A DNA stretch of 64,000 nucleotides, from positions 7,006,001 to 7,070,000 of the forward strand of contig JAUCEF010000007.1 of the NCBI GenBank assembly GCA_033558025.1, read 5' to 3'. A model generated the notes under the pieces. The model had not been told where the DNA came from and did not search any database. It saw nothing but the letters and a program-made list of their open reading frames with translations. The position numbers were made by a program, and so were the translations under genes. Position 1 is the stretch's first letter, and every line of letters begins with the position of its first letter. This DNA is from Phytophthora sp. 'mugwort'. Its lineage: Eukaryota; Oomycota; Peronosporomycetes; Peronosporales; Peronosporaceae. Below are positions 1 through 50,728 of the stretch, piece by piece.

Positions 1-147
1 CAGCGAGCGAGTTTTGCCGTCCCGTCGGCTGTGAGCATCGGAGATCATCAGTGGATAGGCAGCAACGGAGCGTTGGGTACGTGGTTTCGCCTGTTTTGGT
101 AGATGCATGGTTGTGTTTTTTTTGCGGAGTTTTGTCAGTCCAAGCAA

Positions 148-218
148 GCGCCGTTGGTTTAGTGGTAAAATATCTCGTTGCCAACGAGATGCCCCGGGTT
201 CGATTCCCGGACGGCGCA
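148..218 (+). tRNA. tRNA-Gly (GCC), reference copy for the array
   Basis: This 71-nt gene folds as a complete tRNA. Bases 1-7 pair perfectly with 64-70 and base 71 is the A discriminator. The anticodon stem TCTCG/CGAGA encloses loop TTGCCAA, giving anticodon GCC at bases 33-35, which reads GGC and GGU codons. The T stem CCGGG/CCCGG closes TTCGATT. The internal Pol III promoter is an A box (TGGTTTAGTGG, bases 8-18) and a B box (GGTTCGATTCC, bases 50-60). There is no intron and no encoded CCA. CAA motifs sit within 10 nt upstream, a possible Pol III start context. This unit has a run of eight Ts at 113-123, about 25-35 nt upstream. Confidence 0.97.
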
Positions 219-1201
219 TTCTCTTATGCTTCTCTCGGACTGCCCAGACCGCTCGGACGCGTCTTTCGGTGAATCGGACAGCTAGTACGTCGTGGCCATT
301 GGTGCAGGCCGATTGTGCAGCTTTCCGTTCGGCTGGTTGCTGACGGAGTCAATTCTGGAAGACTCAGTTTGTCCAGCGAGCGAGTTTTGCCGTCCCGTCG
401 GCTGTGAACATCGGAGATCATCAGTGGATAGGCAGCAACGGAGCGTTGGGTACGTGGTTTCGCCTGTTTTGGTAGATGCATGGTTGTGTTGTTTTGCGGA
501 GTTTTCGTCACTCCAAGCAAGCCAATGAGATGGCACGGGTTCGATTCCCGGACGGCGCATTCTCTTATGCTTCTCTCGGACTGCCCAGACCGCTCGGACG
601 CGTCTTTCGGTAAATCGGACAGCTAGTACGTCGTGGCCATTGGTGCAGGCCGATTGTGCAGCTTTCCGTTCGGCTGGTTGCTGACGGAGTCAATTCTGGA
701 AGACTCAGTTTGTCCAGCGAGCGAGTTTTGCCGTCCCGTCGGCTGTGAGCATCGGAGATCATCAGTGGGATAGGCAGCAACGGAGCGTTGGGTACGTGGT
801 TTCGCCTGTTTTGGTAGATGCATGGTTGTGTTGTTTTGCGGAGTTTTGTCAGTCCAAGCAAGCCAATGAGATGGCACGGGTTCGATTCCCGGACGGCGCA
901 TTCTCTTATGCTTCTCTCGGACTGCCCAGACCGCTCGGACGCGTCTTTCGGTGAATCGGACAGCTAGTACGTCGTGGCCATTGGTGCAGGCCGATTGTGC
1001 AGCTTTCCGTTCGGCTGGTTGCTGACGGAGTCAATTCTGGAAGACTCAGTTTGTCCAGCGAGCGAGTTTTGCCGTCCCGTCGGCTGTGAACATCGGAGAT
1101 CATCAGTGGATAGGCAGCAACGGAGCGTTGGGTACGTGGTTTCGCCTGTTTTGGTAGATGCATGGTTGTGTTGTTTTGCGGAGTTTTGTCAGTCCAAGCA
1201 A

Positions 1202-1272
1202 GCGCCGTTGGTTTAGTGGTAAAATATCTCGTTGCCAACGAGATGCCCCGGGTTCGATTCCCGGACGGCGCA
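1202..1272 (+). tRNA. tRNA-Gly (GCC)
   Basis: Consensus copy ending a 372-bp unit; follows two truncated units. Confidence 0.96.
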
Positions 1273-1573
1273 TTCTCTTATGCTTCTCTCGGACTGCCCA
1301 GACCGCTCGGACGCGTCTTTCGGTGAATCGGACAGCTAGTACGTCGTGGCCATTGGTGCAGGCCGATTGTGCAGCTTTCCGTTCGGCTGGTTGCTGACGG
1401 AGTCAATTCTGGAAGACTCAGTTTGTCCAGCGAGCGAGTTTTGCCGTCCCGTCGGCTGTGAACATCGGAGATCATCAGTGGATAGGCAGCAACGGAGCGT
1501 TGGGTACGTGGTTTCGCCTGTTTTGGTAGATGCATGGTTGTGTTGTTTTGCGGAGTTTTGTCAGTCCAAGCAA

Positions 1574-1644
1574 GCGCCGTTGGTTTAGTGGTAAAATATC
1601 TCGTTGCCAACGAGATGCCCCGGGTTCGATTCCCGGACGGCGCA
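1574..1644 (+). tRNA. tRNA-Gly (GCC)
   Basis: Consensus copy, 372-bp unit. Confidence 0.96.
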
Positions 1645-1944
1645 TTCTCTTATGCTTCTCTCGGACTGCCCAGACCGCTCGGACGCGTCTTTCGGTGAAT
1701 CGGACAGCTAGTACGTCGTGGCCATTGGTGCAGGCCGATTGTGCAGCTTTCCGTTCGGCTGGTTGCTGACGGAGTCAATTCTGGAAGACTCAGTTTGTCC
1801 AGCGAGCGAGTTTTGCCGTCCCGTCGGCTGTGAGCATCGGAGATCATCAGTGGATAGGCAGCAACGGAGCGTTGGGTACGTGGTTTCACCTGTTTTGGTA
1901 GATGCATGGTTGTGTTGTTTGCGGAGTTTTGTCAGTCCAAGCAA

Positions 1945-2015
1945 GCGCCGTTGGTTTAGTGGTAAAATATCTCGTTGCCAACGAGATGCCCCGGGTTCGA
2001 TTCCCGGACGGCGCA
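1945..2015 (+). tRNA. tRNA-Gly (GCC)
   Basis: Consensus copy, 371-bp unit (one T fewer upstream, spacer variant tttcacctg). Confidence 0.96.
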
Positions 2016-2315
2016 TTCTCTTATGCTTCTCTCGGACTGCCCAGACCGCTCGGACGCGTCTTTCGGTGAATCGGACAGCTAGTACGTCGTGGCCATTGGT
2101 GCAGGCCGATTGTGCAGCTTTCCGTTCGGCTGGTTGCTGACGGAGTCAATTCTGGAAGACTCAGTTTGTCCAGCGAGCGAGTTTTGCCGTCCCGTCGGCT
2201 GTGAGCATCGGAGATCATCAGTGGATAGGCAGCAACGGAGCGTTGGGTACGTGGTTTCACCTGTTTTGGTAGATGCATGGTTGTGTTGTTTGCGGAGTTT
2301 TGTCAGTCCAAGCAA

Positions 2316-2386
2316 GCGCCGTTGGTTTAGTGGTAAAATATCTCGTTGCCAACGAGATGCCCCGGGTTCGATTCCCGGACGGCGCA
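2316..2386 (+). tRNA. tRNA-Gly (GCC)
   Basis: Consensus copy, 371-bp unit. Confidence 0.96.
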
Positions 2387-2686
2387 TTCTCTTATGCTTC
2401 TCTCGGACTGCCCAGACCGCTCGGACGCGTCTTTCGGTGAATCGGACAGCTAGTACGTCGTGGCCATTGGTGCAGGCCGATTGTGCAGCTTTCCGTTCGG
2501 CTGGTTGCTGACGGAGTCAATTCTGGAAGACTCAGTTTGTCCAGCGAGCGAGTTTTGCCGTCCCGTCGGCTGTGAGCATCGGAGATCATCAGTGGATAGG
2601 CAGCAACGGAGCGTTGGGTACGTGGTTTCACCTGTTTTGGTAGATGCATGGTTGTGTTGTTTGCGGAGTTTTGTCAGTCCAAGCAA

Positions 2687-2757
2687 GCGCCGTTGGTTTA
2701 GTGGTAAAATATCTCGTTGCCAACGAGATGCCCCGGGTTCGATTCCCGGACGGCGCA
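2687..2757 (+). tRNA. tRNA-Gly (GCC)
   Basis: Consensus copy, third 371-bp unit in a row. Confidence 0.96.
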
Positions 2758-3741
2758 TTCTCTTATGCTTCTCTCGGACTGCCCAGACCGCTCGGACGCG
2801 TCTTTCGGTGAATCGGACAGCTAGTACGTCGTGGCCATTGGTGCAGGCCGATTGTGCAGCTTTCCGTTCGGCTGGTTGCTGACGGAGTCAATTCTGGAAG
2901 ACTCAGTTTGTCCAGCGAGCGAGTTTTGCCGTCCCGTCGGCTGTGAACATCGGAGATCATCAGTGGATAGGCAGCAACGGAGCGTTGGGTACGTGGTTTC
3001 GCCTGTTTTGGTAGATGCATGGTTGTGTTGTTTTGCGGAGTTTTCGTCACTCCAAGCAAGCCAATGAGATGGCACGGGTTCGATTCCCGGACGGCGCATT
3101 CTCTTATGCTTCTCTCGGACTGCCCAGACCGCTCGGACGCGTCTTTCGGTGAATCGGACAGCTAGTACGTCGTGGCCATTGGTGCAGGCCGATTGTGCAG
3201 CTTTCCGTTCGGCTGGTTGCTGACGGAGTCAATTCTGGAAGACTCAGTTTGTCCAGCGAGCGAGTTTTGCCGTCCCGTCGGCTGTGAGCATCGGAGATCA
3301 TCAGTGGATAGGCAGCAACGGAGCGTTGGGTACGTGGTTTCGCCTGTTTTGGTAGATGCATGGTTGTGTTGTTTTGCGGAGTTTTCGTCACTCCAAGCAA
3401 GCCAATGAGATGGCACGGGTTCGATTCCCGGACGGCGCATTCTCTTATGCTTCTCTCGGACTGCCCAGACCGCTCGGACGCGTCTTTCGGTGAATTGGAC
3501 AGCTAGTACGTCGTGTCCATTGGTGCAGGTCGATTGTGCAGCTTTCCGTTCGGCTGGTTGCTGACGGAGTCAATTCTGGAAGACTCAGTTTGTCCAGCGA
3601 GCGAGTTTTGCCGTCCCGTCGGCTGTGAGCATCGGAGATCATCAGTGGATAGGCAGCAACGGAGCGTTGGGTACGTGGTTTCGCCTGTTTTGGTAGATGC
3701 ATGGTTGTGTTTTTTTTGCGGAGTTTTGTCAGTCCAAGCAA

Positions 3742-3812
3742 GCGCCGTTGGTTTAGTGGTAAAATATCTCGTTGCCAACGAGATGCCCCGGGTTCGATTC
3801 CCGGACGGCGCA
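3742..3812 (+). tRNA. tRNA-Gly (GCC)
   Basis: Consensus copy, 373-bp unit with a T8 run about 25 nt upstream. Confidence 0.96.
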
Positions 3813-4113
3813 TTCTCTTATGCTTCTCTCGGACTGCCCAGACCGCTCGGACGCGTCTTTCGGTGAATCGGACAGCTAGTACGTCGTGTCCATTGGTGCA
3901 GGCCGATTGTGCAGCTTTCCGTTCGGCTGGTTGCTGACGGAGTCAATTCTGGAAGACTCAGTTTGTCCAGCGAGCGAGTTTTGCCGTCCCGTCGGCTGTG
4001 AGCATCGGAGATCATCAGTGGATAGGCAGCAACGGAGCGTTGGGTACGTGGTTTCGCCTGTTTTGGTAGATGCATGGTTGTGTTGTTTTGCGGAGTTTTG
4101 TCAGTCCAAGCAA

Positions 4114-4184
4114 GCGCCGTTGGTTTAGTGGTAAAATATCTCGTTGCCAACGAGATGCCCCGGGTTCGATTCCCGGACGGCGCA
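4114..4184 (+). tRNA. tRNA-Gly (GCC)
   Basis: Consensus copy, 372-bp unit with gtgtcc spacer variant. Confidence 0.96.
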
Positions 4185-4485
4185 TTCTCTTATGCTTCTC
4201 TCGGACTGCCCAGACCGCTCGGACGCGTCTTTCGGTGAATCGGACAGCTAGTACGTCGTGTCCATTGGTGCAGGCCGATTGTGCAGCTTTCCGTTCGGCT
4301 GGTTGCTGACGGAGTCAATTCTGGAAGACTCAGTTTGTCCAGCGAGCGAGTTTTGCCGTCCCGTCGGCTGTGAGCATCGGAGATCATCAGTGGATAGGCA
4401 GCAACGGAGCGTTGGGTACGTGGTTTCGCCTGTTTTGGTAGATGCATGGTTGTGTTGTTTTGCGGAGTTTTGTCAGTCCAAGCAA

Positions 4486-4556
4486 GCGCCGTTGGTTTAG
4501 TGGTAAAATATCTCGTTGCCAACGAGATGCCCCGGGTTCGATTCCCGGACGGCGCA
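4486..4556 (+). tRNA. tRNA-Gly (GCC)
   Basis: Consensus copy, 372-bp unit. Confidence 0.96.
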
Positions 4557-4857
4557 TTCTCTTATGCTTCTCTCGGACTGCCCAGACCGCTCGGACGCGT
4601 CTTTCGGTGAATCGGACAGCTAGTACGTCGTGTCCATTGGTGCAGGCCGATTGTGCAGCTTTCCGTTCGGCTGGTTGCTGACGGAGTCAATTCTGGAAGA
4701 CTCAGTTTGTCCAGCGAGCGAGTTTTGCCGTCCCGTCGGCTGTGAGCATCGGAGATCATCAGTGGATAGGCAGCAACGGAGCGTTGGGTACGTGGTTTCG
4801 CCTGTTTTGGTAGATGCATGGTTGTGTTGTTTTGCGGAGTTTTGTCAGTCCAAGCAA

Positions 4858-4928
4858 GCGCCGTTGGTTTAGTGGTAAAATATCTCGTTGCCAACGAGAT
4901 GCCCCGGGTTCGATTCCCGGACGGCGCA
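4858..4928 (+). tRNA. tRNA-Gly (GCC)
   Basis: Consensus copy, 372-bp unit. Confidence 0.96.
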
Positions 4929-5229
4929 TTCTCTTATGCTTCTCTCGGACTGCCCAGACCGCTCGGACGCGTCTTTCGGTGAATCGGACAGCTAGTACGT
5001 CGTGGCCATTGGTGCAGGCCGATTGTGCAGCTTTCCGTTCGGCTGGTTGCTGACGGAGTCAATTCTGGAAGACTCAGTTTGTCCAGCGAGCGAGTTTTGC
5101 CGTCCCGTCGGCTGTGAGCATCGGAGATCATCAGTGGATAGGCAGCAACGGAGCGTTGGGTACGTGGTTTCGCCTGTTTTGGTAGATGCATGGTTGTGTT
5201 GTTTTGCGGAGTTTTGTCAGTCCAAGCAA

Positions 5230-5300
5230 GCGCCGTTGGTTTAGTGGTAAAATATCTCGTTGCCAACGAGATGCCCCGGGTTCGATTCCCGGACGGCGCA
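5230..5300 (+). tRNA. tRNA-Gly (GCC)
   Basis: Consensus copy, 372-bp unit. Confidence 0.96.
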
Positions 5301-6283
5301 TTCTCTTATGCTTCTCTCGGACTGCCCAGACCGCTCGGACGCGTCTTTCGGTGAATCGGACAGCTAGTACGTCGTGGCCATTGGTGCAGGCCGATTGTGC
5401 AGCTTTCCGTTCGGCTGGTTGCTGACGGAGTCAATTCTGGAAGACTCAGTTTGTCCAGCGAGCGAGTTTTGCCGTCCCGTCGGCTGTGAGCATCGGAGAT
5501 CATCAGTGGATAGGCAGCAACGGAGCGTTGGGTACGTGGTTTCGCCTGTTTTGGTAGATGCATGGTTGTGTTGTTTTGCGGAGTTTTCGTCACTCCAAGC
5601 AAGCCAATGAGATGGCACGGGTTCGATTCCCGGACGGCGCATTCTCTTATGCTTCTCTCGGACTGCCCAGACCGCTCGGACGCGTCTTTCGGTGAATTGG
5701 ACAGCTAGTACGTCGTGTCCATTGGTGCAGGTCGATTGTGCAGCTTTCCGTTCGGCTGGTTGCTGACGGAGTCAATTCTGGAAGACTCAGTTTGTCCAGC
5801 GAGCGAGTTTTGCCGTCCCGTCGGCTGTGAGCATCGGAGATCATCAGTGGATAGGCAGCAACGGAGCGTTGGGTACGTGGTTTCGCCTGTTTTGGTAGAT
5901 GCATGGTTGTGTTGTTTTGCGGAGTTTTCGTCACTCCAAGCAAGCCAATGAGATGGCACGGGTTCGATTCCCGGACGGCGCATTCTCTTATGCTTCTCTC
6001 GGACTGCCCAGACCGCTCGGACGCGTCTTTCGGTGAATTGGACAGCTAGTACGTCGTGTCCATTGGTGCAGGTCGATTGTGCAGCTTTCCGTTCGGCTGG
6101 TTGCTGACGGAGTCAATTCTGGAAGACTCAGTTTGTCCAGCGAGCGAGTTTTGCCGTCCCGTCGGCTGTGAACATCGGAGATCATCAGTGGATAGGCAGC
6201 AACGGAGCGTTGGGTACGTGGTTTCGCCTGTTTTGGTAGATGCATGGTTGTGTTGTTTTGCGGAGTTTTGTCAGTCCAAGCAA

Positions 6284-6354
6284 GCGCCGTTGGTTTAGTG
6301 GTAAAATATCTCGTTGCCAACGAGATGCCCCGGGTTCGATTCCCGGACGGCGCA
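6284..6354 (+). tRNA. tRNA-Gly (GCC)
   Basis: Consensus copy flanked by truncated units. Confidence 0.96.
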
Positions 6355-7337
6355 TTCTCTTATGCTTCTCTCGGACTGCCCAGACCGCTCGGACGCGTCT
6401 TTCGGTGAATCGGACAGCTAGTACGTCGTGTCCATTGGTGCAGGCCGATTGTGCAGCTTTCCGTTCGGCTGGTTGCTGATGGAGTCAATTCTGGAAGACT
6501 CAGTTTGTCCAGCGAGCGAGTTTTGCCGTCCCGTCGGCTGTGAGCATCGGAGATCATCAGTGGATAGGCAGCAACGGAGCGTTGGGTACGTGGTTTCGCC
6601 TGTTTTGGTAGATGCATGGTTGTGTTGTTTTGCGGAGTTTTCGTCACTCCAAGCAAGCCAATGAGATGGCACGGGTTCGATTCCCGGACGGCGCATTCTC
6701 TTATGCTTCTCTCGGACTGCCCAGACCGCTCGGACGCGTCTTTCGGTGAATTGGACAGCTAGTACGTCGTGTCCATTGGTGCAGGTCGATTGTGCAGCTT
6801 TCCGTTCGGCTGGTTGCTGACGGAGTCAATTCTGGAAGACTCAGTTTGTCCAGCGAGCGAGTTTTGCCGTCCCGTCGGCTGTGAACATCGGAGATCATCA
6901 GTGGATAGGCAGCAACGGAGCGTTGGGTACGTGGTTTCGCCTGTTTTGGTAGATGCATGGTTGTGTTGTTTTGCGGAGTTTTCGTCACTCCAAGCAAGCC
7001 AATGAGATGGCACGGGTTCGATTCCCGGACGGCGCATTCTCTTATGCTTCTCTCGGACTGCCCAGACCGCTCGGACGCGTCTTTCGGTGAATTGGACAGC
7101 TAGTACGTCGTGTCCATTGGTGCAGGTCGATTGTGCAGCTTTCCGTTCGGCTGGTTGCTGACGGAGTCAATTCTGGAAGACTCAGTTTGTCCAGCGAGCG
7201 AGTTTTGCCGTCCCGTCGGCTGTGAACATCGGAGATCATCAGTGGATAGGCAGCAACGGAGCGTTGGGTACGTGGTTTCGCCTGTTTTGGTAGATGCATG
7301 GTTGTGTTGTTTTGCGGAGTTTTGTCAGTCCAAGCAA

Positions 7338-7408
7338 GCGCCGTTGGTTTAGTGGTAAAATATCTCGTTGCCAACGAGATGCCCCGGGTTCGATTCCCGG
7401 ACGGCGCA
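7338..7408 (+). tRNA. tRNA-Gly (GCC)
   Basis: Consensus copy flanked by truncated units. Confidence 0.96.
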
Positions 7409-8050
7409 TTCTCTTATGCTTCTCTCGGACTGCCCAGACCGCTCGGACGCGTCTTTCGGTGAATCGGACAGCTAGTACGTCGTGGCCATTGGTGCAGGCC
7501 GATTGTGCAGCTTTCCGTTCGGCTGGTTGCTGATGGAGTCAATTCTGGAAGACTCAGTTTGTCCAGCGAGCGAGTTTTGCCGTCCCGTCGGCTGTGAGCA
7601 TCGGAGATCATCAGTGGATAGGCAGCAACGGAGCGTTGGGTACGTGGTTTCGCCTGTTTTGGTAGATGCATGGTTGTGTTGTTTTGCGGAGTTTTCGTCA
7701 CTCCAAGCAAGCCAATGAGATGGCACGGGTTCGATTCCCGGACGGCGCATTCTCTTATGCTTCTCTCGGACTGCCCAGACCGCTCGGACGCGTCTTTCGG
7801 TGAATTGGACAGCTAGTACGTCGTGTCCATTGGTGCAGGTCGATTGTGCAGCTTTCCGTTCGGCTGGTTGCTGACGGAGTCAATTCTGGAAGACTCAGTT
7901 TGTCCAGCGAGCGAGTTTTGCCGTCCCGTCGGCTGTGAACATCGGAGATCATCAGTGGATAGGCAGCAACGGAGCGTTGGGTACGTGGTTTCGCCTGTTT
8001 TGGTAGATGCATGGTTGTGTTGTTTTGCGGAGTTTTGTCAGTCCAAGCAA

Positions 8051-8121
8051 GCGCCGTTGGTTTAGTGGTAAAATATCTCGTTGCCAACGAGATGCCCCGG
8101 GTTCGATTCCCGGACGGCGCA
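8051..8121 (+). tRNA. tRNA-Gly (GCC)
   Basis: Consensus copy flanked by truncated units. Confidence 0.96.
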
Positions 8122-8762
8122 TTCTCTTATGCTTCTCTCGGACTGCCCAGACCGCTCGGACGCGTCTTTCGGTGAATCGGACAGCTAGTACGTCGTGTCC
8201 ATTGGTGCAGGTCGATTGTGCAGCTTTCCGTTCGGCTGGTTGCTGACGGAGTCAATTCTGGAAGACTCAGTTTGTCCAGCGAGCGAGTTTTGCCGTCCCG
8301 TCGGCTGTGAACATCGGAGATCATCAGTGGATAGGCAGCAACGGAGCGTTGGGTACGTGGTTTCGCCTGTTTTGGTAGATGCATGGTTGTGTTGTTTTGC
8401 GGAGTTTTCGTCACTCCAAGCAAGCCAATGAGATGGCACGGGTTCGATTCCCGGACGGCGCATTCTCTTATGCTTCTCTCGGACTGCCCAGACCGCTCGG
8501 ACGCGTCTTTCGGTGAATCGGACAGCTAGTACGTCGTGTGCAATGGTGCAGGCCGATTGTGCAGCTTTCCGTTCGGCTGGTTGCTGACGGAGTCAATTCT
8601 GGAAGACTCAGTTTGTCCAGCGAGCGAGTTTTGCCGTCCCGTCGGCTGTGAGCATCGGAGATCATCAGTGGATAGGCAGCAACGGAGCGTTGGGTACGTG
8701 GTTCGCCTGTTTTGGTAGATGCATGGTTGTGTTGTTTTGCGGAGTTTTGTCAGTCCAAGCAA

Positions 8763-8833
8763 GCGCCGTTGGTTTAGTGGTAAAATATCTCGTTGCCAAC
8801 GAGATGCCCCGGGTTCGATTCCCGGACGGCGCA
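8763..8833 (+). tRNA. tRNA-Gly (GCC)
   Basis: Consensus copy, 371-bp unit with gtgtgcaatgg spacer variant; first unit of the 2,168-bp repeat. Confidence 0.96.
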
Positions 8834-9134
8834 TTCTCTTATGCTTCTCTCGGACTGCCCAGACCGCTCGGACGCGTCTTTCGGTGAATCGGACAGCTAG
8901 TACGTCGTGTCCATTGGTGCAGGCCGATTGTGCAGCTTTCCGTTCGGCTGGTTGCTGACGGAGTCAATTCTGGAAGACTCAGTTTGTCCAGCGAGCGAGT
9001 TTTGCCGTCCCGTCGGCTGTGAGCATCGGAGATCATCAGTGGATAGGCAGCAACGGAGCGTTGGGTACGTGGTTTCGCCTGTTTTGGTAGATGCATGGTT
9101 GTGTTGTTTTGCGGAGTTTTGTCAGTCCAAGCAA

Positions 9135-9205
9135 GCGCCGTTGGTTTAGTGGTAAAATATCTCGTTGCCAACGAGATGCCCCGGGTTCGATTCCCGGACG
9201 GCGCA
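9135..9205 (+). tRNA. tRNA-Gly (GCC)
   Basis: Consensus copy, 372-bp unit. Confidence 0.96.
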
Positions 9206-9506
9206 TTCTCTTATGCTTCTCTCGGACTGCCCAGACCGCTCGGACGCGTCTTTCGGTGAATCGGACAGCTAGTACGTCGTGTCCATTGGTGCAGGCCGAT
9301 TGTGCAGCTTTCCGTTCGGCTGGTTGCTGACGGAGTCAATTCTGGAAGACTCAGTTTGTCCAGCGAGCGAGTTTTGCCGTCCCGTCGGCTGTGAGCATCG
9401 GAGATCATCAGTGGATAGGCAGCAACGGAGCGTTGGGTACGTGGTTTCGCCTGTTTTGGTAGATGCATGGTTGTGTTGTTTTGCGGAGTTTTGTCAGTCC
9501 AAGCAA

Positions 9507-9577
9507 GCGCCGTTGGTTTAGTGGTAAAATATCTCGTTGCCAACGAGATGCCCCGGGTTCGATTCCCGGACGGCGCA
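9507..9577 (+). tRNA. tRNA-Gly (GCC)
   Basis: Consensus copy, 372-bp unit. Confidence 0.96.
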
Positions 9578-10218
9578 TTCTCTTATGCTTCTCTCGGACT
9601 GCCCAGACCGCTCGGACGCGTCTTTCGGTGAATCGGACAGCTAGTACGTCGTGTCCATTGGTGCAGGCCGATTGTGCAGCTTTCCGTTCGGCTGGTTGCT
9701 GACGGAGTCAATTCTGGAAGACTCAGTTTGTCCAGCGAGCGAGTTTTGCCGTCCCGTCGGCTGTGAGCATCGGAGATCATCAGTGGATAGGCAGCAACGG
9801 AGCGTTGGGTACGTGGTTTCGCCTGTTTTGGTAGATGCATGGTTGTGTTGTTTTGCGGAGTTTTGTCAGTCCAAGCAAGCCAATGAGATGGCACGGGTTC
9901 GATTCCCGGACGGCGCATTCTCTTATGCTTCTCTCGGACTGCCCAGACCGCTCGGACGCGTCTTTCGGTGAATCGGACAGCTAGTACGTCGTGGCCATTG
10001 GTGCAGGCCGATTGTGCAGCTTTCCGTTCGGCTGGTTGCTGACGGAGTCAATTCTGGAAGACTCAGTTTGTCCAGCGAGCGAGTTTTGCCGTCCCGTCGG
10101 CTGTGAGCATCGGAGATCATCAGTGGATAGGCAGCAACGGAGCGTTGGGTACGTGGTTTCGCCTGTTTTGGTAGATGCATGGTTGTGTTTTTTTGCGGAG
10201 TTTTGTCAGTCCAAGCAA

Positions 10219-10289
10219 GCGCCGTTGGTTTAGTGGTAAAATATCTCGTTGCCAACGAGATGCCCCGGGTTCGATTCCCGGACGGCGCA
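10219..10289 (+). tRNA. tRNA-Gly (GCC)
   Basis: Consensus copy with a T7 run upstream (G-to-T change joining two T tracts). Confidence 0.96.
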
Positions 10290-10930
10290 TTCTCTTATGC
10301 TTCTCTCGGACTGCCCAGACCGCTCGGACGCGTCTTTCGGTGAATCGGACAGCTAGTACGTCGTGGCCATTGGTGCAGGCCGATTGTGCAGCTTTCCGTT
10401 CGGCTGGTTGCTGACGGAGTCAATTCTGGAAGACTCAGTTTGTCCAGCGAGCGAGTTTTGCCGTCCCGTCGGCTGTGAACATCGGAGATCATCAGTGGAT
10501 AGGCAGCAACGGAGCGTTGGGTACGTGGTTTCGCCTGTTTTGGTAGATGCATGGTTGTGTTGTTTTGCGGAGTTTTCGTCACTCCAAGCAAGCCAATGAG
10601 ATGGCACGGGTTCGATTCCCGGACGGCGCATTCTCTTATGCTTCTCTCGGACTGCCCAGACCGCTCGGACGCGTCTTTCGGTGAATCGGACAGCTAGTAC
10701 GTCGTGTGCAATGGTGCAGGCCGATTGTGCAGCTTTCCGTTCGGCTGGTTGCTGACGGAGTCAATTCTGGAAGACTCAGTTTGTCCAGCGAGCGAGTTTT
10801 GCCGTCCCGTCGGCTGTGAGCATCGGAGATCATCAGTGGATAGGCAGCAACGGAGCGTTGGGTACGTGGTTCGCCTGTTTTGGTAGATGCATGGTTGTGT
10901 TGTTTTGCGGAGTTTTGTCAGTCCAAGCAA

Positions 10931-11001
10931 GCGCCGTTGGTTTAGTGGTAAAATATCTCGTTGCCAACGAGATGCCCCGGGTTCGATTCCCGGACGGCGC
11001 A
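10931..11001 (+). tRNA. tRNA-Gly (GCC)
   Basis: Counterpart of the 8763 gene in the second 2,168-bp copy. Confidence 0.96.
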
Positions 11002-11302: not shown

Positions 11303-11373
11303 GCGCCGTTGGTTTAGTGGTAAAATATCTCGTTGCCAACGAGATGCCCCGGGTTCGATTCCCGGACGGCGCA
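11303..11373 (+). tRNA. tRNA-Gly (GCC)
   Basis: Counterpart of the 9135 gene. Confidence 0.96.
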
Positions 11374-39424: not shown

Positions 39425-41089
39425 TTCTCTTATGCTTCTCTCGGACTGCCCAGACCGCTCGGACGCGTCTTTCGGTGAATCGGACAGCTAGTACGTCGTG
39501 TCCATTGGTGCAGGCCGATTGTGCAGCTTTCCGTTCGGCTGGTTGCTGACGGAGTCAATTCTGGAAGACTCAGTTTGTCCAGCGAGCGAGTTTTGCCGTC
39601 CCGTCGGCTGTGAGCATCGGAGATCATCAGTGGATAGGCAGCAACGGAGCGTTGGGTACGTGGTTTCGCCTGTTTTGGTAGATGCATGGTTGTGTTGTTT
39701 TGCGGAGTTTTCGTCACTCCAAGCAAGCCAATGAGATGGCACGGGTTCGATTCCCGGACGGCGCATTCTCTTATGCTTCTCTCGGACTGCCCAGACCGCT
39801 CGGACGCGTCTTTCGGTGAATCGGACAGCTAGTACGTCGTGGCCATTGGTGCAGGCCGATTGTGCAGCTTTCCGTTCGGCTGGTTGCTGACGGAGTCAAT
39901 TCTGGAAGACTCAGTTTGTCCAGCGAGCGAGTTTTGCCGTCCCGTCGGCTGTGAACATCGGAGATCATCAGTGGATAGGCAGCAACGGAGCGTTGGGTAC
40001 GTGGTTTCGCCTGTTTTGGTAGATGCATGGTTGTGTTGTTTTGCGGAGTTTTCGTCACTCCAAGCAAGCCAATGAGATGGCACGGGTTCGATTCCCGGAC
40101 GGCGCATTCTCTTATGCTTCTCTCGGACTGCCCAGACCGCTCGGACGCGTCTTTCGGTGAATCGGACAGCTAGTACGTCGTGGCCATTGGTGCAGGCCGA
40201 TTGTGCAGCTTTCCGTTCGGCTGGTTGCTGACGGAGTCAATTCTGGAAGACTCAGTTTGTCCAGCGAGCGAGTTTTGCCGTCCCGTCGGCTGTGAGCATC
40301 GGAGATCATCAGTGGATAGGCAGCAACGGAGCGTTGGGTACGTGGTTTCGCCTGTTTTGGTAGATGCATGGTTGTGTTGTTTTGCGGAGTTTTCGTCACT
40401 CCAAGCAAGCCAATGAGATGGCACGGGTTCGATTCCCGGACGGCGCATTCTCTTATGCTTCTCTCGGACTGCCCAGACCGCTCGGACGCGTCTTTCGGTG
40501 AATCGGACAGCTAGTACGTCGTGGCCATTGGTGCAGGCCGATTGTGCAGCTTTCCGTTCGGCTGGTTGCTGACGGAGTCAATTCTGGAAGACTCAGTTTG
40601 TCCAGCGAGCGAGTTTTGCCGTCCCGTCGGCTGTGAGCATCGGAGATCATCAGTGGATAGGCAGCAACGGAGCGTTGGGTACGTGGTTTCGCCTGTTTTG
40701 GTAGATGCATGGTTGTGTTGTTTTGCGGAGTTTTCGTCACTCCGAGCAAGCCAATGAGATGGCACGGGTTCGATTCCCGGACGGCGCATTCTCTTATGCT
40801 TCTCTCGGACTGCCCAGACCGCTCGGACGCGTCTTTCGGTGAATCGGACAGCTAGTACGTCGTGGCCATTGGTGCAGGCCGATTGTGCAGCTTTCCGTTC
40901 GGCTGGTTGCTGACGGAGTCAATTCTGGAAGACTCAGTTTGTCCAGCGAGCGAGTTTTGCCGTCCCGTCGGCTGTGAGCATCGGAGATCATCAGTGGATA
41001 GGCAGCAACGGAGCGTTGGGTACGTGGTTTCGCCTGTTTTGGTAGATGCATGGTTGTGTTGTTTTGCGGAGTTTTGTCAGTCCAAGCAA

Positions 41090-41160
41090 GCGCCGTTGGT
41101 TTAGTGGTAAAATATCTCGTTGCCAACGAGATGCCCCGGGTTCGATTCCCGGACGGCGCA
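41090..41160 (+). tRNA. tRNA-Gly (GCC)
   Basis: Counterpart of the 37898 gene in the second 3,192-bp repeat. Confidence 0.96.
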
Positions 41161-41461
41161 TTCTCTTATGCTTCTCTCGGACTGCCCAGACCGCTCGGAC
41201 GCGTCTTTCGGTGAATCGGACAGCTAGTACGTCGTGGCCATTGGTGCAGGCCGATTGTGCAGCTTTCCGTTCGGCTGGTTGCTGACGGAGTCAATTCTGG
41301 AAGACTCAGTTTGTCCAGCGAGCGAGTTTTGCCGTCCCGTCGGCTGTGAGCATCGGAGATCATCAGTGGATAGGCAGCAACGGAGCGTTGGGTACGTGGT
41401 TTCGCCTGTTTTGGTAGATGCATGGTTGTGTTGTTTTGCGGAGTTTTGTCAGTCCAAGCAA

Positions 41462-41532
41462 GCGCCGTTGGTTTAGTGGTAAAATATCTCGTTGCCAACG
41501 AGATGCCCCGGGTTCGATTCCCGGACGGCGCA
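41462..41532 (+). tRNA. tRNA-Gly (GCC)
   Basis: Counterpart of the 38270 gene. Confidence 0.96.
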
Positions 41533-41832
41533 TTCTCTTATGCTTCTCTCGGACTGCCCAGACCGCTCGGACGCGTCTTTCGGTGAATCGGACAGCTAGT
41601 ACGTCGTGGCCATTGGTGCAGGCCGATTGTGCAGCTTTCCGTTCGGCTGGTTGCTGACGGAGTCAATTCTGGAAGACTCAGTTTGTCCAGCGAGCGAGTT
41701 TTGCCGTCCCGTCGGCTGTGAGCATCGGAGATCATCAGTGGATAGGCAGCAACGGAGCGTTGGGTACGTGGTTTCACCTGTTTTGGTAGATGCATGGTTG
41801 TGTTGTTTGCGGAGTTTTGTCAGTCCAAGCAA

Positions 41833-41903
41833 GCGCCGTTGGTTTAGTGGTAAAATATCTCGTTGCCAACGAGATGCCCCGGGTTCGATTCCCGGACGGC
41901 GCA
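41833..41903 (+). tRNA. tRNA-Gly (GCC)
   Basis: Counterpart of the 38641 gene. Confidence 0.96.
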
Positions 41904-42545
41904 TTCTCTTATGCTTCTCTCGGACTGCCCAGACCGCTCGGACGCGTCTTTCGGTGAATCGGACAGCTAGTACGTCGTGGCCATTGGTGCAGGCCGATTG
42001 TGCAGCTTTCCGTTCGGCTGGTTGCTGACGGAGTCAATTCTGGAAGACTCAGTTTGTCCAGCGAGCGAGTTTTGCCGTCCCGTCGGCTGTGAGCATCGGA
42101 GATCATCAGTGGATAGGCAGCAACGGAGCGTTGGGTACGTGGTTTCGCCTGTTTTGGTAGATGCATGGTTGTGTTGTTTTGCGGAGTTTTCGTCACTCCA
42201 AGCAAGCCAATGAGATGGCACGGGTTCGATTCCCGGACGGCGCATTCTCTTATGCTTCTCTCGGACTGCCCAGACCGCTCGGACGCGTCTTTCGGTGAAT
42301 CGGACAGCTAGTACGTCGTGGCCATTGGTGCAGGCCGATTGTGCAGCTTTCCGTTCGGCTGGTTGCTGACGGAGTCAATTCTGGAAGACTCAGTTTGTCC
42401 AGCGAGCGAGTTTTGCCGTCCCGTCGGCTGTGAGCATCGGAGATCATCAGTGGATAGGCAGCAACGGAGCGTTGGGTACGTGGTTTCGCCTGTTTTGGTA
42501 GATGCATGGTTGTGTTGTTTTGCGGAGTTTTGTCAGTCCAAGCAA

Positions 42546-42616
42546 GCGCCGTTGGTTTAGTGGTAAAATACCTCGTTGCCAACGAGATGCCCCGGGTTCG
42601 ATTCCCGGACGGCGCA
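42546..42616 (+). tRNA. tRNA-Gly (GCC), C27 variant
   Basis: Counterpart of the 39354 gene with the same C27/A43 mismatch. Confidence 0.93.
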
Positions 42617-43257
42617 TTCTCTTATGCTTCTCTCGGACTGCCCAGACCGCTCGGACGCGTCTTTCGGTGAATCGGACAGCTAGTACGTCGTGTCCATTGG
42701 TGCAGGCCGATTGTGCAGCTTTCCGTTCGGCTGGTTGCTGACGGAGTCAATTCTGGAAGACTCAGTTTGTCCAGCGAGCGAGTTTTGCCGTCCCGTCGGC
42801 TGTGAGCATCGGAGATCATCAGTGGATAGGCAGCAACGGAGCGTTGGGTACGTGGTTTCGCCTGTTTTGGTAGATGCATGGTTGTGTTGTTTTGCGGAGT
42901 TTTCGTCACTCCAAGCAAGCCAATGAGATGGCACGGGTTCGATTCCCGGACGGCGCATTCTCTTATGCTTCTCTCGGACTGCCCAGACCGCTCGGACGCG
43001 TCTTTCGGTGAATCGGACAGCTAGTACGTCGTGGCCATTGGTGCAGGCCGATTGTGCAGCTTTCCGTTCGGCTGGTTGCTGACGGAGTCAATTCTGGAAG
43101 ACTCAGTTTGTCCAGCGAGCGAGTTTTGCCGTCCCGTCGGCTGTGAGCATCGGAGATCATCAGTGGATAGGCAGCAACGGAGCGTTGGGTACGTGGTTTC
43201 ACCTGTTTTGGTAGATGCATGGTTGTGTTGTTTGCGGAGTTTTGTCAGTCCAAGCAA

Positions 43258-43328
43258 GCGCCGTTGGTTTAGTGGTAAAATATCTCGTTGCCAACGAGAT
43301 GCCCCGGGTTCGATTCCCGGACGGCGCA
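43258..43328 (+). tRNA. tRNA-Gly (GCC)
   Basis: Consensus copy, 371-bp unit. Confidence 0.96.
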
Positions 43329-43970
43329 TTCTCTTATGCTTCTCTCGGACTGCCCAGACCGCTCGGACGCGTCTTTCGGTGAATCGGACAGCTAGTACGT
43401 CGTGGCCATTGGTGCAGGCCGATTGTGCAGCTTTCCGTTCGGCTGGTTGCTGACGGAGTCAATTCTGGAAGACTCAGTTTGTCCAGCGAGCGAGTTTTGC
43501 CGTCCCGTCGGCTGTGAGCATCGGAGATCATCAGTGGATAGGCAGCAACGGAGCGTTGGGTACGTGGTTTCGCCTGTTTTGGTAGATGCATGGTTGTGTT
43601 GTTTTGCGGAGTTTTCGTCACTCCAAGCAAGCCAATGAGATGGCACGGGTTCGATTCCCGGACGGCGCATTCTCTTATGCTTCTCTCGGACTGCCCAGAC
43701 CGCTCGGACGCGTCTTTCGGTGAATCGGACAGCTAGTACGTCGTGGCCATTGGTGCAGGCCGATTGTGCAGCTTTCCGTTCGGCTGGTTGCTGACGGAGT
43801 CAATTCTGGAAGACTCAGTTTGTCCAGCGAGCGAGTTTTGCCGTCCCGTCGGCTGTGAGCATCGGAGATCATCAGTGGATAGGCAGCAACGGAGCGTTGG
43901 GTACGTGGTTTCGCCTGTTTTGGTAGATGCATGGTTGTGTTGTTTTGCGGAGTTTTGTCAGTCCAAGCAA

Positions 43971-44041
43971 GCGCCGTTGGTTTAGTGGTAAAATACCTCG
44001 TTGCCAACGAGATGCCCCGGGTTCGATTCCCGGACGGCGCA
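43971..44041 (+). tRNA. tRNA-Gly (GCC), C27 variant
   Basis: Third copy with the C27/A43 mismatch. Confidence 0.93.
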
Positions 44042-44682
44042 TTCTCTTATGCTTCTCTCGGACTGCCCAGACCGCTCGGACGCGTCTTTCGGTGAATCGG
44101 ACAGCTAGTACGTCGTGGCCATTGGTGCAGGCCGATTGTGCAGCTTTCCGTTCGGCTGGTTGCTGACGGAGTCAATTCTGGAAGACTCAGTTTGTCCAGC
44201 GAGCGAGTTTTGCCGTCCCGTCGGCTGTGAGCATCGGAGATCATCAGTGGATAGGCAGCAACGGAGCGTTGGGTACGTGGTTTCGCCTGTTTTGGTAGAT
44301 GCATGGTTGTGTTGTTTTGCGGAGTTTTCGTCACTCCAAGCAAGCCAATGAGATGGCACGGGTTCGATTCCCGGACGGCGCATTCTCTTATGCTTCTCTC
44401 GGACTGCCCAGACCGCTCGGACGCGTCTTTCGGTGAATCGGACAGCTAGTACGTCGTGGCCATTGGTGCAGGCCGATTGTGCAGCTTTCCGTTCGGCTGG
44501 TTGCTGACGGAGTCAATTCTGGAAGACTCAGTTTGTCCAGCGAGCGAGTTTTGCCGTCCCGTCGGCTGTGAGCATCGGAGATCATCAGTGGATAGGCAGC
44601 AACGGAGCGTTGGGTACGTGGTTTCACCTGTTTTGGTAGATGCATGGTTGTGTTGTTTGCGGAGTTTTGTCAGTCCAAGCAA

Positions 44683-44753
44683 GCGCCGTTGGTTTAGTGG
44701 TAAAATATCTCGTTGCCAACGAGATGCCCCGGGTTCGATTCCCGGACGGCGCA
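44683..44753 (+). tRNA. tRNA-Gly (GCC)
   Basis: Consensus copy, 371-bp unit. Confidence 0.96.
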
Positions 44754-45734
44754 TTCTCTTATGCTTCTCTCGGACTGCCCAGACCGCTCGGACGCGTCTT
44801 TCGGTGAATCGGACAGCTAGTACGTCGTGGCCATTGGTGCAGGCCGATTGTGCAGCTTTCCGTTCGGCTGGTTGCTGACGGAGTCAATTCTGGAAGACTC
44901 AGTTTGTCCAGCGAGCGAGTTTTGCCGTCCCGTCGGCTGTGAGCATCGGAGATCATCAGTGGATAGGCAGCAACGGAGCGTTGGGTACGTGGTTTCGCCT
45001 GTTTTGGTAGATGCATGGTTGTGTTGTTTTGCGGAGTTTTCGTCACTCCAAGCAAGCCAATGAGATGGCACGGGTTCGATTCCCGGACGGCGCATTCTCT
45101 TATGCTTCTCTCGGACTGCCCAGACCGCTCGGACGCGTCTTTCGGTGAATCGGACAGCTAGTACGTCGTGGCCATTGGTGCAGGCCGATTGTGCAGCTTT
45201 CCGTTCGGCTGGTTGCTGACGGAGTCAATTCTGGAAGACTCAGTTTGTCCAGCGAGCGAGTTTTGCCGTCCCGTCGGCTGTGAGCATCGGAGATCATCAG
45301 TGGATAGGCAGCAACGGAGCGTTGGGTACGTGGTTTCGCCTGTTTTGGTAGATGCATGGTTGTGTTGTTTTGCGGAGTTTTGTCACTCCAAGCAAGCCAA
45401 TGAGATGGCACGGGTTCGATTCCCGGACGGCGCATTCTCTTATGCTTCTCTCGGACTGCCCAGACCGCTCGGACGCGTCTTTCGGTGAATCGGACAGCTA
45501 GTACGTCGTGGCCATTGGTGCAGGCCGATTGTGCAGCTTTCCGTTCGGCTGGTTGCTGACGGAGTCAATTCTGGAAGACTCAGTTTGTCCAGCGAGCGAG
45601 TTTTGCCGTCCCGTCGGCTGTGAGCATCGGAGATCATCAGTGGATAGGCAGCAACGGAGCGTTGGGTACGTGGTTTCACCTGTTTTGGTAGATGCATGGT
45701 TGTGTTGTTTGCGGAGTTTTGTCAGTCCAAGCAA

Positions 45735-45805
45735 GCGCCGTTGGTTTAGTGGTAAAATATCTCGTTGCCAACGAGATGCCCCGGGTTCGATTCCCGGACG
45801 GCGCA
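45735..45805 (+). tRNA. tRNA-Gly (GCC)
   Basis: Consensus copy, 371-bp unit. Confidence 0.96.
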
Positions 45806-46787
45806 TTCTCTTATGCTTCTCTCGGACTGCCCAGACCGCTCGGACGCGTCTTTCGGTGAATCGGACAGCTAGTACGTCGTGGCCATTGGTGCAGGCCGAT
45901 TGTGCAGCTTTCCGTTCGGCTGGTTGCTGACGGAGTCAATTCTGGAAGACTCAGTTTGTCCAGCGAGCGAGTTTTGCCGTCCCGTCGGCTGTGAACATCG
46001 GAGATCATCAGTGGATAGGCAGCAACGGAGCGTTGGGTACGTGGTTTCGCCTGTTTTGGTAGATGCATGGTTGTGTTGTTTTGCGGAGTTTTCGTCACTC
46101 CAAGCAAGCCAATGAGATGGCACGGGTTCGATTCCCGGACGGCGCATTCTCTTATGCTTCTCTCGGACTGCCCAGACCGCTCGGACGCGTCTTTCGGTGA
46201 ATCGGACAGCTAGTACGTCGTGGCCATTGGTGCAGGCCGATTGTGCAGCTTTCCGTTCGGCTGGTTGCTGACGGAGTCAATTCTGGAAGACTCAGTTTGT
46301 CCAGCGAGCGAGTTTTGCCGTCCCGTCGGCTGTGAGCATCGGAGATCATCAGTGGATAGGCAGCAACGGAGCGTTGGGTACGTGGTTTCGCCTGTTTTGG
46401 TAGATGCATGGTTGTGTTGTTTTGCGGAGTTTTGTCAGTCCAAGCAAGCCAATGAGATGGCACGGGTTCGATTCCCGGACGGCGCATTCTCTTATGCTTC
46501 TCTCGGACTGCCCAGACCGCTCGGACGCGTCTTTCGGTGAATTGGACAGCTAGTACGTCGTGGCCATTGGTGCAGGTCGATTGTGCAGCTTTCCGTTCGG
46601 CTGGTTGCTGACGGAGTCAATTCTGGAAGACTCAGTTTGTCCAGCGAGCGAGTTTTGCCGTCCCGTCGGCTGTGAACATCGGAGATCATCAGTGGATAGG
46701 CAGCAACGGAGCGTTGGGTACGTGGTTTCGCCTGTTTTGGTAGATGCATGGTTGTGTTGTTTTGCGGAGTTTTGTCAGTCCAAGCAA

Positions 46788-46858
46788 GCGCCGTTGGTTT
46801 AGTGGTAAAATACCTCGTTGCCAACGAGATGCCCCGGGTTCGATTCCCGGACGGCGCA
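46788..46858 (+). tRNA. tRNA-Gly (GCC), C27 variant
   Basis: Fourth copy with the C27/A43 mismatch; last full gene before eight truncated units. Confidence 0.93.
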
Positions 46859-49800
46859 TTCTCTTATGCTTCTCTCGGACTGCCCAGACCGCTCGGACGC
46901 GTCTTTCGGTGAATTGGACAGCTAGTACGTCGTGTCCATTGGTGCAGGCCGATTGTGCAGCTTTCCGTTCGGCTGGTTGCTGACGGAGTCAATTCTGGAA
47001 GACTCAGTTTGTCCAGTGAGCGAGTTTTGCCGTCCCGTCGGCTGTGAACATCGGAGATCATCAGTGGATAGGCAGCAACGGAGCGTTGGGTACGTGGTTT
47101 CGCCTGTTTTGGTAGATGCATGGTTGTGTTGTTTTGCGGAGTTTTGTCAGTCCAAGCAAGCCAATGAGATGGCACGGGTTCGATTCCCGGACGGCGCATT
47201 CTCTTATGCTTCTCTCGGACTGCCCAGACCGCTCGGACGCGTCTTTCGGTGAATCGGACAGCTAGTACGTCGTGGCCATTGGTGCAGGCCGATTGTGCAG
47301 CTTTCCGTTCGGCTGGTTGCTGACGGAGTCAATTCTGGAAGACTCAGTTTGTCCAGCGAGCGAGTTTTGCCGTCCCGTCGGCTGTGAGCATCGGAGATCA
47401 TCAGTGGATAGGCAGCAACGGAGCGTTGGGTACGTGGTTTCGCCTGTTTTGGTAGATGCATGGTTGTGTTGTTTTGCGGAGTTTTCGTCACTCCAAGCAA
47501 GCCAATGAGATGGCACGGGTTCGATTCCCGGACGGCGCATTCTCTTATGCTTCTCTCGGACTGCCCAGACCGCTCGGACGCGTCTTTCGGTGAATCGGAC
47601 AGCTAGTACGTCGTGGCCATTGGTGCAGGCCGATTGTGCAGCTTTCCGTTCGGCTGGTTGCTGACGGAGTCAATTCTGGAAGACTCAGTTTGTCCAGCGA
47701 GCGAGTTTTGCCGTCCCGTCGGCTGTGAGCATCGGAGATCATCAGTGGATAGGCAGCAACGGAGCGTTGGGTACGTGGTTTCGCCTGTTTTGGTAGATGC
47801 ATGGTTGTGTTGTTTTGCGGAGTTTTGTCACTCCAAGCAAGCCAATGAGATGGCACGGGTTCGATTCCCGGACGGCGCATTCTCTTATGCTTCTCTCGGA
47901 CTGCCCAGACCGCTCGGACGCGTCTTTCGGTGAATCGGACAGCTAGTACGTCGTGGCCATTGGTGCAGGCCGATTGTGCAGCTTTCCGTTCGGCTGGTTG
48001 CTGACGGAGTCAATTCTGGAAGACTCAGTTTGTCCAGCGAGCGAGTTTTGCCGTCCCGTCGGCTGTGAACATCGGAGATCATCAGTGGATAGGCAGCAAC
48101 GGAGCGTTGGGTACGTGGTTTCGCCTGTTTTGGTAGATGCATGGTTGTGTTGTTTTGCGGAGTTTTCGTCACTCCAAGCAAGCCAATGAGATGGCACGGG
48201 TTCGATTCCCGGACGGCGCATTCTCTTATGCTTCTCTCGGACTGCCCAGACCGCTCGGACGCGTCTTTCGGTGAATCGGACAGCTAGTACGTCGTGGCCA
48301 TTGGTGCAGGCCGATTGTGCAGCTTTCCGTTCGGCTGGTTGCTGACGGAGTCAATTCTGGAAGACTCAGTTTGTCCAGCGAGCGAGTTTTGCCGTCCCGT
48401 CGGCTGTGAGCATCGGAGATCATCAGTGGATAGGCAGCAACGGAGCGTTGGGTACGTGGTTTCGCCTGTTTTGGTAGATGCATGGTTGTGTTGTTTTGCG
48501 GAGTTTTGTCACTCCAAGCAAGCCAATGAGATGGCACGGGTTCGATTCCCGGACGGCGCATTCTCTTATGCTTCTCTCGGACTGCCCAGACCGCTCGGAC
48601 GCGTCTTTCGGTGAATCGGACAGCTAGTACGTCGTGGCCATTGGTGCAGGCCGATTGTGCAGCTTTCCGTTCGGCTGGTTGCTGACGGAGTCAATTCTGG
48701 AAGACTCAGTTTGTCCAGCGAGCGAGTTTTGCCGTCCCGTCGGCTGTGAACATCGGAGATCATCAGTGGATAGGCAGCAACGGAGCGTTGGGTACGTGGT
48801 TTCGCCTGTTTTGGTAGATGCATGGTTGTGTTGTTTTGCGGAGTTTTCGTCACTCCAAGCAAGCCAATGAGATGGCACGGGTTCGATTCCCGGACGGCGC
48901 ATTCTCTTATGCTTCTCTCGGACTGCCCAGACCGCTCGGACGCGTCTTTCGGTGAATCGGACAGCTAGTACGTCGTGGCCATTGGTGCAGGCCGATTGTG
49001 CAGCTTTCCGTTCGGCTGGTTGCTGACGGAGTCAATTCTGGAAGACTCAGTTTGTCCAGTGAGCGAGTTTTGCCGTCCCGTCGGCTGTGAACATCGGAGA
49101 TCATCAGTGGATAGGCAGCAACGGAGCGTTGGGTACGTGGTTTCGCCTGTTTTGGTAGATGCATGGTTGTGTTGTTTTGCGGAGTTTTGTCAGTCCAAGC
49201 AAGCCAATGAGATGGCACGGGTTCGATTCCCGGACGGCGCATTCTCTTATGCTTCTCTCGGACTGCCCAGACCGCTCGGACGCGTCTTTCGGTGAATTGG
49301 ACAGCTAGTACGTCGTGTCCATTGGTGCAGGTCGATTGTGCAGCTTTCCGTTCGGCTGGTTGCTGACGGAGTCAATTCTGGAAGACTCAGTTTGTCCAGC
49401 GAGCGAGTTTTGCCGTCCCGTCGGCTGTGAACATCGGAGATCATCAGTGGATAGGCAGCAACGGAGCGTTGGGTACGTGGTTTCGCCTGTTTTGGTAGAT
49501 GCATGGTTGTGTTGTTTGCGGAGTTTTCGTCACTCCAAGCAAGCCAATGAGATGGCACGGGTTCGATTCCCGGACGGCGCATTCTCTTATGCTTCTCTCG
49601 GACTGCCCAGACCGCTCGGACGCGTCTTTCGGTGAATCGGACAGCTAGTACGTCGTGGCCATTGGTGCAGGCCGATTGTGCAGCTTTCCGTTCGGCTGGT
49701 TGCTGACGGAGTCAATTCTGGAAGACTCAGTTTGTCCAGCGAGCGAGTTTTGCCGTCCCGTCGGCTGTGAGCATCGGAGATCATCAGTGGATAGGCAGCA

Positions 49801-49882
49801 ACGGAGCGTTGGGTACGTGGTTTCGCCTGTTTTGGTAGATGCATGGTTGTGTTGTTTTGCGGAGTTTTGTCAGTCCAAGCAA

Positions 49883-49953
49883 GCGCCGTTGGTTTAGTGG
49901 TAAAATATCTCGTTGCCAACGAGATGCCCCGGGTTCGATTCCCGGACGGCGCA
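49883..49953 (+). tRNA. tRNA-Gly (GCC)
   Basis: Consensus copy, 372-bp unit. Confidence 0.96.
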
Positions 49954-50594
49954 TTCTCTTATGCTTCTCTCGGACTGCCCAGACCGCTCGGACGCGTCTT
50001 TCGGTGAATCGGACAGCTAGTACGTCGTGGCCATTGGTGCAGGCCGATTGTGCAGCTTTCCGTTCGGCTGGTTGCTGACGGAGTCAATTCTGGAAGACTC
50101 AGTTTGTCCAGCGAGCGAGTTTTGCCGTCCCGTCGGCTGTGAGCATCGGAGATCATCAGTGGATAGGCAGCAACGGAGCGTTGGGTACGTGGTTTCGCCT
50201 GTTTTGGTAGATGCATGGTTGTGTTGTTTTGCGGAGTTTTCGTCACTCCAAGCAAGCCAATGAGATGGCACGGGTTCGATTCCCGGACGGCGCATTCTCT
50301 TATGCTTCTCTCGGACTGCCCAGACCGCTCGGACGCGTCTTTCGGTGAATCGGACAGCTAGTACGTCGTGGCCATTGGTGCAGGCCGATTGTGCAGCTTT
50401 CCGTTCGGCTGGTTGCTGACGGAGTCAATTCTGGAAGACTCAGTTTGTCCAGCGAGCGAGTTTTGCCGTCCCGTCGGCTGTGAGCATCGGAGATCATCAG
50501 TGGATAGGCAGCAACGGAGCGTTGGGTACGTGGTTTCGCCTGTTTTGGTAGATGCATGGTTGTGTTGTTTGCGGAGTTTTGTCAGTCCAAGCAA

Positions 50595-50665
50595 GCGCCG
50601 TTGGTTTAGTGGTAAAATATCTCGTTGCCAACGAGATGCCCCGGGTTCGATTCCCGGACGGCGCA
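50595..50665 (+). tRNA. tRNA-Gly (GCC), last gene of the array
   Basis: Consensus copy in a 371-bp unit. About 60 nt downstream the repeat spacer starts to diverge into unique sequence. Confidence 0.96.
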
Positions 50666-50728
50666 TTCTCTTATGCTTCTCTCGGACTGCCCAGACCGCT
50701 CGGACGCGTCTTTCGGTGAATCGGACGG

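Follow-up and report, generated by a model that had tools for sequence, protein, structure and literature searches.

A tandem array of tRNA-Gly(GCC) genes with interspersed half-gene units in a Phytophthora nuclear genome

Along one stretch of contig C7 of a Phytophthora genome, tRNA-Gly genes follow one another head to tail, which raises the question of whether such a locus is a working source of a single glycine tRNA or a satellite derived from its gene. The window, i.e., the whole 64,000-nucleotide stretch of DNA that was analysed, is C7:7,006,001-7,070,000 in an assembly of 86,260,535 bases and 154 contigs. An initial annotation of the window had placed tandem tRNA arrays chiefly in Entamoeba and a few animals. 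That description is out of date, as arrays of most tRNA genes have been published for P. infestans (PMC9584435) and the present genome holds at least four more arrays.

In P. infestans, 7,519 tRNA genes were predicted on chromosomes and 3,537 on other contigs, with ~64% of the genes in single-gene arrays, 36% in dimeric or trimeric arrays, and about two thirds of tRNA families on one chromosome (Matson et al. 2022, PMC9584435). The repeats within an array are nearly identical, and the few variants are grouped, often near an edge. Copy numbers in that species agree with read depth, growth of the arrays is ascribed to unequal crossing-over, and a possible role in chromatin has been raised (PMC9584435). 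Nematostella and teleosts are also reported to have large clusters, with fifty or more tRNA genes (PMC2888827). Here, we consider it likely that the C7 locus is a dedicated, single-locus tRNA-Gly(GCC) array of the nuclear genome, one of several tRNA arrays, kept uniform through unequal exchange and short conversion, with a lineage of half-genes shuffled in among the intact ones.

Extent, composition and flanks of the array

In the window ARAGORN called 78 tRNA-Gly genes, which all lie on the + strand between 148 and 50,665; this agrees with the earlier count of at least 78 full genes in a single orientation over ~50 kb. The array was also said to run past the left edge of the window, and it does so for a further ~15.5 kb. 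With flanks added to the window (110 kb on the left and 10 kb on the right), unit homology spans C7:6,990,533-7,056,758 (window -15,467 to 50,758), i.e., 66.2 kb, and at either edge the assembly passes from array into non-array sequence. When parsed by the conserved T arm, the window holds 142 head-to-tail units, of which 78 are full and 64 are short. The whole array in the assembly comprises 185 units, 107 full and 78 short, with none on the opposite strand (Table 1). With 185 head-to-tail repeats in one orientation and tRNA-Gly as the only gene, the locus is a monomeric array. A full tRNA is present in 107 of the 185 units, and loss of the canonical gene, as in a tRNA-derived SINE or satellite, is confined to the 78 half-units.

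The unit length of ~372 bp given previously holds for the full units, which have an anchor-to-anchor spacing of 371-373 bp in 105 of 106 cases and 379 bp in the other. It does not hold for the short units, 64 of them in the window, which had been overlooked and which are spaced at 340-342 bp in all 78 cases. Tandem Repeats Finder (TRF) likewise gave periods of 340-372 bp only. Among the full genes 99 of 107 are letter-identical, the anticodon is ACC in two of the 78 genes of the window, and the four array genes scanned with the tRNA model scored 63.9-68.1 bits (gathering score 29). Variants of the tRNA occur at nt 26, 33 and 37.

Table 1. Features of the window, with positions counted from its first nucleotide
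Feature	Position	Strand	Evidence or remark
tRNA-Gly(GCC) tandem array, window part, 142 units	1..50758	+	ARAGORN, TRF, unit parse, homology
Half-gene unit, example, 341 bp, ending in tRNA 3' part; box A absent, box B present	559..899	+	Sequence, unit table, alignment
Full unit, example, 372 bp: intact tRNA-Gly(GCC) 1202-1272, then spacer	1202..1573	+	ARAGORN, unit table
tRNA-Gly, anticodon ACC, first in window	25312..25382	+	ARAGORN
tRNA-Gly, anticodon ACC, second in window	36503..36573	+	ARAGORN
Right edge: last full tRNA-Gly (50,595-50,665) and spacer, truncated and diverged (95% identical over 164 bp)	50595..50758	+	
LINE (non-LTR retrotransposon) copy, internally deleted, beginning where array homology ends	50760..55483	+	zf-RVT, below cut-off
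Quinolinate synthase (NadA), apparent intron near 5' end	55758..57356	+	Flanking gene
GH7 cellobiohydrolase	57982..59556	-	Flanking gene

In its arrangement the locus has much in common with the monomeric arrays of P. infestans, i.e., one tRNA gene repeated head to tail, apparently on one chromosome, in near-identical repeats, with units of the 0.5 kb class (513 nt in 271 copies for tRNA-Cys there; PMC9584435). Tandem arrays of tRNA genes with copies mostly uniform within an isolate are also shared with Entamoeba. There, however, up to five tRNA genes make up a unit, and the genes of E. histolytica and E. dispar are separated by short tandem repeats (PMC2652664), whereas TRF reported no complex short tandem repeats in the spacer of the present array.

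The right flank begins with a LINE copy that has lost its reverse-transcriptase core and is 94-98% identical to a copy in a tRNA-Asn gene on C5. The latter (C5:886,634-893,426) retains RVT_1 (E 1.1e-21) and lies inside the tRNA gene, with tRNA nt 11-23 duplicated as a 13-bp target-site duplication. Another copy, on C1, terminates at nt 11 within a tRNA-Gly(CCC) gene on the one side examined. That two insertions share one tRNA position suggests an element directed to box A of tRNA genes. In the 3' part of the LINE next to the array (window 55,100-55,185, - strand), a stretch that resembles a tRNA and has motifs of the D arm and the T arm drew no ARAGORN call. Of the two genes further to the right, quinolinate synthase is 94% identical to that of P. 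pseudosyringae over 90% of its length, and the GH7 protein is 83% identical to that of P. lilii and 81% to that of P. sojae over the full length, and 89% to that of P. rubi and 88% to that of P. pseudosyringae over 90%. To the left, a fragment of a DDE_Tnp_4 transposase (- strand, E 6.1e-23) lies ~3 kb from the array, and an AT-rich tRNA-Ala(TGC) of mitochondrial look (C7:6,931,975-6,932,049, - strand) is possibly a nuclear insertion of mitochondrial DNA.

Nuclear supply of tRNA-Gly(GCC) and other tRNA arrays

Genome-wide, the full-length tRNA pattern with up to three mismatches gave 107 forward matches and one reverse match, and its reversed control gave none, which rules out chance. All but one of these 108 matches lie at the C7 array, and the remaining one fits a mutated relic on C3 of ~1.6 units that is 91% identical over 618 bp and carries three T-arm substitutions. 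We rejected this relic as a working gene on account of its three T-arm changes, though ARAGORN calls it tRNA-Gly. Patterns joining D arm and anticodon gave no match in the genome when the array was excluded; D-arm patterns can fail, however, since one of them gave none despite the 29 Gly(TCC/CCC) genes, which have a D arm of another sequence. A pattern running from anticodon to T arm is independent of the D arm, and it matched 204 places in the genome (control 2): 105 in the array (the 107 genes minus the two with ACC), 94 of a GGTTCAA type and five others, one of which (C7:519,400) holds no tRNA according to ARAGORN. No other credible nuclear tRNA-Gly(GCC) gene is found among the matches listed, and within an assembly that may be incomplete, and that bounds these searches, the array appears to be the principal nuclear source of tRNA-Gly(GCC), or the only one.

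Of the GGTTCAA-type matches, 91 are identical copies of one GCC-type tRNA stretch on the small contigs C15-C154, and the other three are on C1 and C6. The three places sampled on small contigs look mitochondrial, so many contigs of the assembly seem to be of mitochondrial origin. Small contigs also carry 62 of the 63 best tRNA-model matches, all 62 with one shared score. A dispersed nuclear element was rejected as an explanation of these 63, as the three sampled places are AT-rich clusters of mitochondrial-type tRNAs.

In Entamoeba almost all tRNA genes lie in arrays; here, the five sets of tRNA genes examined all do so. Thirteen Gly(TCC) and 16 Gly(CCC) genes, mostly alternating, occupy C1:3,731,547-3,758,812 (six of them confirmed by ARAGORN in 4 kb); at C1:3,754,824-3,756,920 a CCC gene stands where the period predicts TCC (spacings 1,048 and 1,048), as if its anticodon had been converted. 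Trp(CCA), Ser(GCT) and Thr(CGT) share one unit of ~2,556 bp at C7:1.20-1.27 Mb, where 23 Trp pattern matches fall into three blocks (11 forward, 9 reverse and 3 forward), and this array matches the trimeric Thr(CGT)-Trp(CCA)-Ser(GCT) arrays of P. infestans (PMC9584435). Thr(AGT) has 77 matches at exactly 746 bp on C4 (four confirmed by ARAGORN), and Asn(GTT) has at least 23 listed matches on C5 and 15 genes in the next 12 kb, at a spacing of 732-746 bp, in an array that continues. The positions of these last two come from the first 100 of the 1,249 matches to a box-A pattern used genome-wide (control 0). Between the unit spacer of the tRNA-Gly(GCC) array and the other tRNA arrays, we found no homology beyond the shared tRNA 3' end of the Gly genes. 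Given these further arrays and those of P. infestans (PMC9584435), the idea that the locus is the first of its kind was rejected.

Tandem tRNA genes at one locus are likewise known from the Ser-Tyr-Tyr cluster of Arabidopsis, which is silenced in most tissues (PMC12308677), and from the human tRNA tandem repeat at 1q23.3, which varies in copy number (9-43 units) and has units of 7.3 kb compared with ~0.37 kb here (PMC4041453). Unlike in these clusters, no other nuclear gene for the tRNA of the array was found here among the matches listed.

Intact internal boxes A and B argue for transcription of tRNA genes by Pol III, and a run of four T (T4) is the usual Pol III terminator. The intact units would thus be transcribed by Pol III through their internal A and B boxes, and the output of the array would be a tRNA reading GGC and GGU. 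No T4 run lies within 166 nt 3' of the array tRNA, the first being at +167. In five of seven other gene types (Gly(TCC), Trp, Ser(GCT), Thr(CGT) and Asn) the first run is at +1 to +11, and in Thr(AGT) and Gly(CCC) it is late, at +78 and +95, resembling the array. In the two neighbouring genes, a small sample and one which leaves out codons 1-60 of the ORF for quinolinate synthase (apparent intron), the glycine codons are GGC 45, GGT 27, GGA 9 and GGG 1. This two-gene bias towards GGC and GGT (72/82) goes with 107 GCC genes against 13 TCC and 16 CCC genes. A role in setting glycine tRNA dosage, which was proposed for the array at the outset alongside a putative chromatin or replication barrier, is plausible in view of this codon use and of the fact that other nuclear tRNA-Gly(GCC) genes were not found among the matches listed.

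The strongest alternative sees in the array chiefly a tRNA-derived satellite that is no longer transcribed, with the working tRNA-Gly(GCC) genes absent from the assembly or missed by the patterns. It is consistent with the lack of a nearby T4 terminator and with a half-gene share that has already reached 78 of 185 units, and the anticodon-to-T-arm evidence rests on the matches listed (all but four of 204). Purifying selection on the tRNA within the array was not detected either, as the variable sites of full units number 3 of 70 in the tRNA and 16 of 302 in the spacer (p = 1.0); changed copies, which are not independent events, number 7 over 68 tRNA sites and 174 over 304 spacer sites. However, the 99 letter-identical genes among the 107 full ones fold as tRNAs, no other canonical tRNA-Gly(GCC) gene occurs among the matches listed, a near T4 run is likewise absent at Thr(AGT) and Gly(CCC) genes, and further nuclear tRNAs are also arranged in arrays. 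We therefore regard a dead satellite as improbable. The self-expanding satellite that the initial annotation had considered is not favoured, in light of the letter-identical genes and the random order of half-units, though this reading keeps a small probability.

Half-gene units and probable exchange along the array

Half-units make up 42% of the whole array (78/185) and 64 of the 142 units of the window. They are without 32 alignment columns (313-344), about nt 2-33 of the tRNA. Lost with these are the 5' strands of the acceptor and anticodon stems, the D arm between them with its box A, and the first base of the anticodon. All 78 have this deletion and one substitution in common, and two further substitutions occur in 77 of them, which points to a single origin. 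A GC dinucleotide stands at both break points, so that a slip or joining between the two is probable, and the half-gene probably arose from a single 32-bp deletion between them. Exchange and conversion would then have spread it to 78 of the 185 units.

No half-gene gaps were seen in the Thr array or in the listed parts of the Asn and Gly(TCC/CCC) arrays. Nor did we find mention of such units in Phytophthora tRNA arrays in the portions of the literature covered, supplementary files aside. For P. infestans the text consulted mentions none, compared with 78 of 185 here (PMC9584435). Half-units may exist uncounted in that species, where 1,292 predicted pseudogenes were excluded from one analysis (S2 Fig legend, PMC9584435).

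The order of full and short units along the array is random (91 runs vs 90.8 +/- 6.6 in 5,000 shuffles). The r2 of variants with unit type is 0.98-1 at the tRNA remnant, falls upstream of the deletion to 0.66 (11 columns away) and 0.63 (16 columns away), and is at most 0.08 at the 15 other common spacer sites, where polymorphisms are common to both types; the linkage of spacer variants to unit type thus fades within ~30 bp. Random order and fading linkage indicate that full and short units form one pool. Spacer variants are scattered along the array, half-units are not grouped, and neighbouring units are only slightly less divergent than others (3.5 differences in the spacer at lag 1 and 5.2 at lag 160, compared with 4.2 for all pairs). 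Runs of identical units, up to six units long, recur at offsets of 9 and 39 units. As judged from these variants, the pattern fits frequent unequal exchange with short conversion tracts, by which unequal exchange and short-tract gene conversion would homogenise the units and alter their copy number.

The half-gene is most likely a tolerated pseudogene passenger. A very unlikely alternative is a two-component array, in which 107 genes make tRNA and 78 interspersed box-B-only units are putative ETC-like sites where TFIIIC alone docks, which would keep Pol III complexes spaced or serve the locus as insulators, the half-gene being a selected architectural unit and not a passenger. Selection on the half-units as TFIIIC docking or insulator sites, with box B but without box A, would be in keeping with a box B that is unchanged in 78 of 78 half-units. 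This constancy is, however, uninformative because few sites vary anywhere in the units (12 of 304 spacer sites in short units); the half-units are also in random order, and the arrays found without half-gene gaps count against it, so that we give such selection very little credence.

An inflated copy number, produced in assembly from a few real units, is equally hard to credit: it would be in keeping with near-identical units and with the caution of Matson et al. that tRNA counts differ between assemblies (PMC9584435), but the 184 whole units comprise 53 distinct sequences, the longest repeated run of identical units is six, both edges are resolved, and assembled counts agreed with read depth in P. 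infestans (PMC9584435). On the strength of the resolved edges, the distinct unit sequences and the short repeated runs, the array copy number is favoured as real.

Implications

The type of array described here is already known from P. infestans, and the remaining points of interest are the 42% admixture of half-genes, the apparent supply of an essential tRNA from a single locus, and the LINE in tRNA genes. Such loci would go unseen in collapsed assemblies, a point that Matson et al. make for older Sanger assemblies (PMC9584435). Since half-units differ from full units at known sites, they provide a built-in marker for the reach of exchange tracts within a tRNA array, and they also allow a direct test of TFIIIC binding without transcription at units that have box B only. 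Should a single fast-evolving array indeed make an essential tRNA, recombination alone could shift the number of gene copies and perhaps the dosage of the tRNA.
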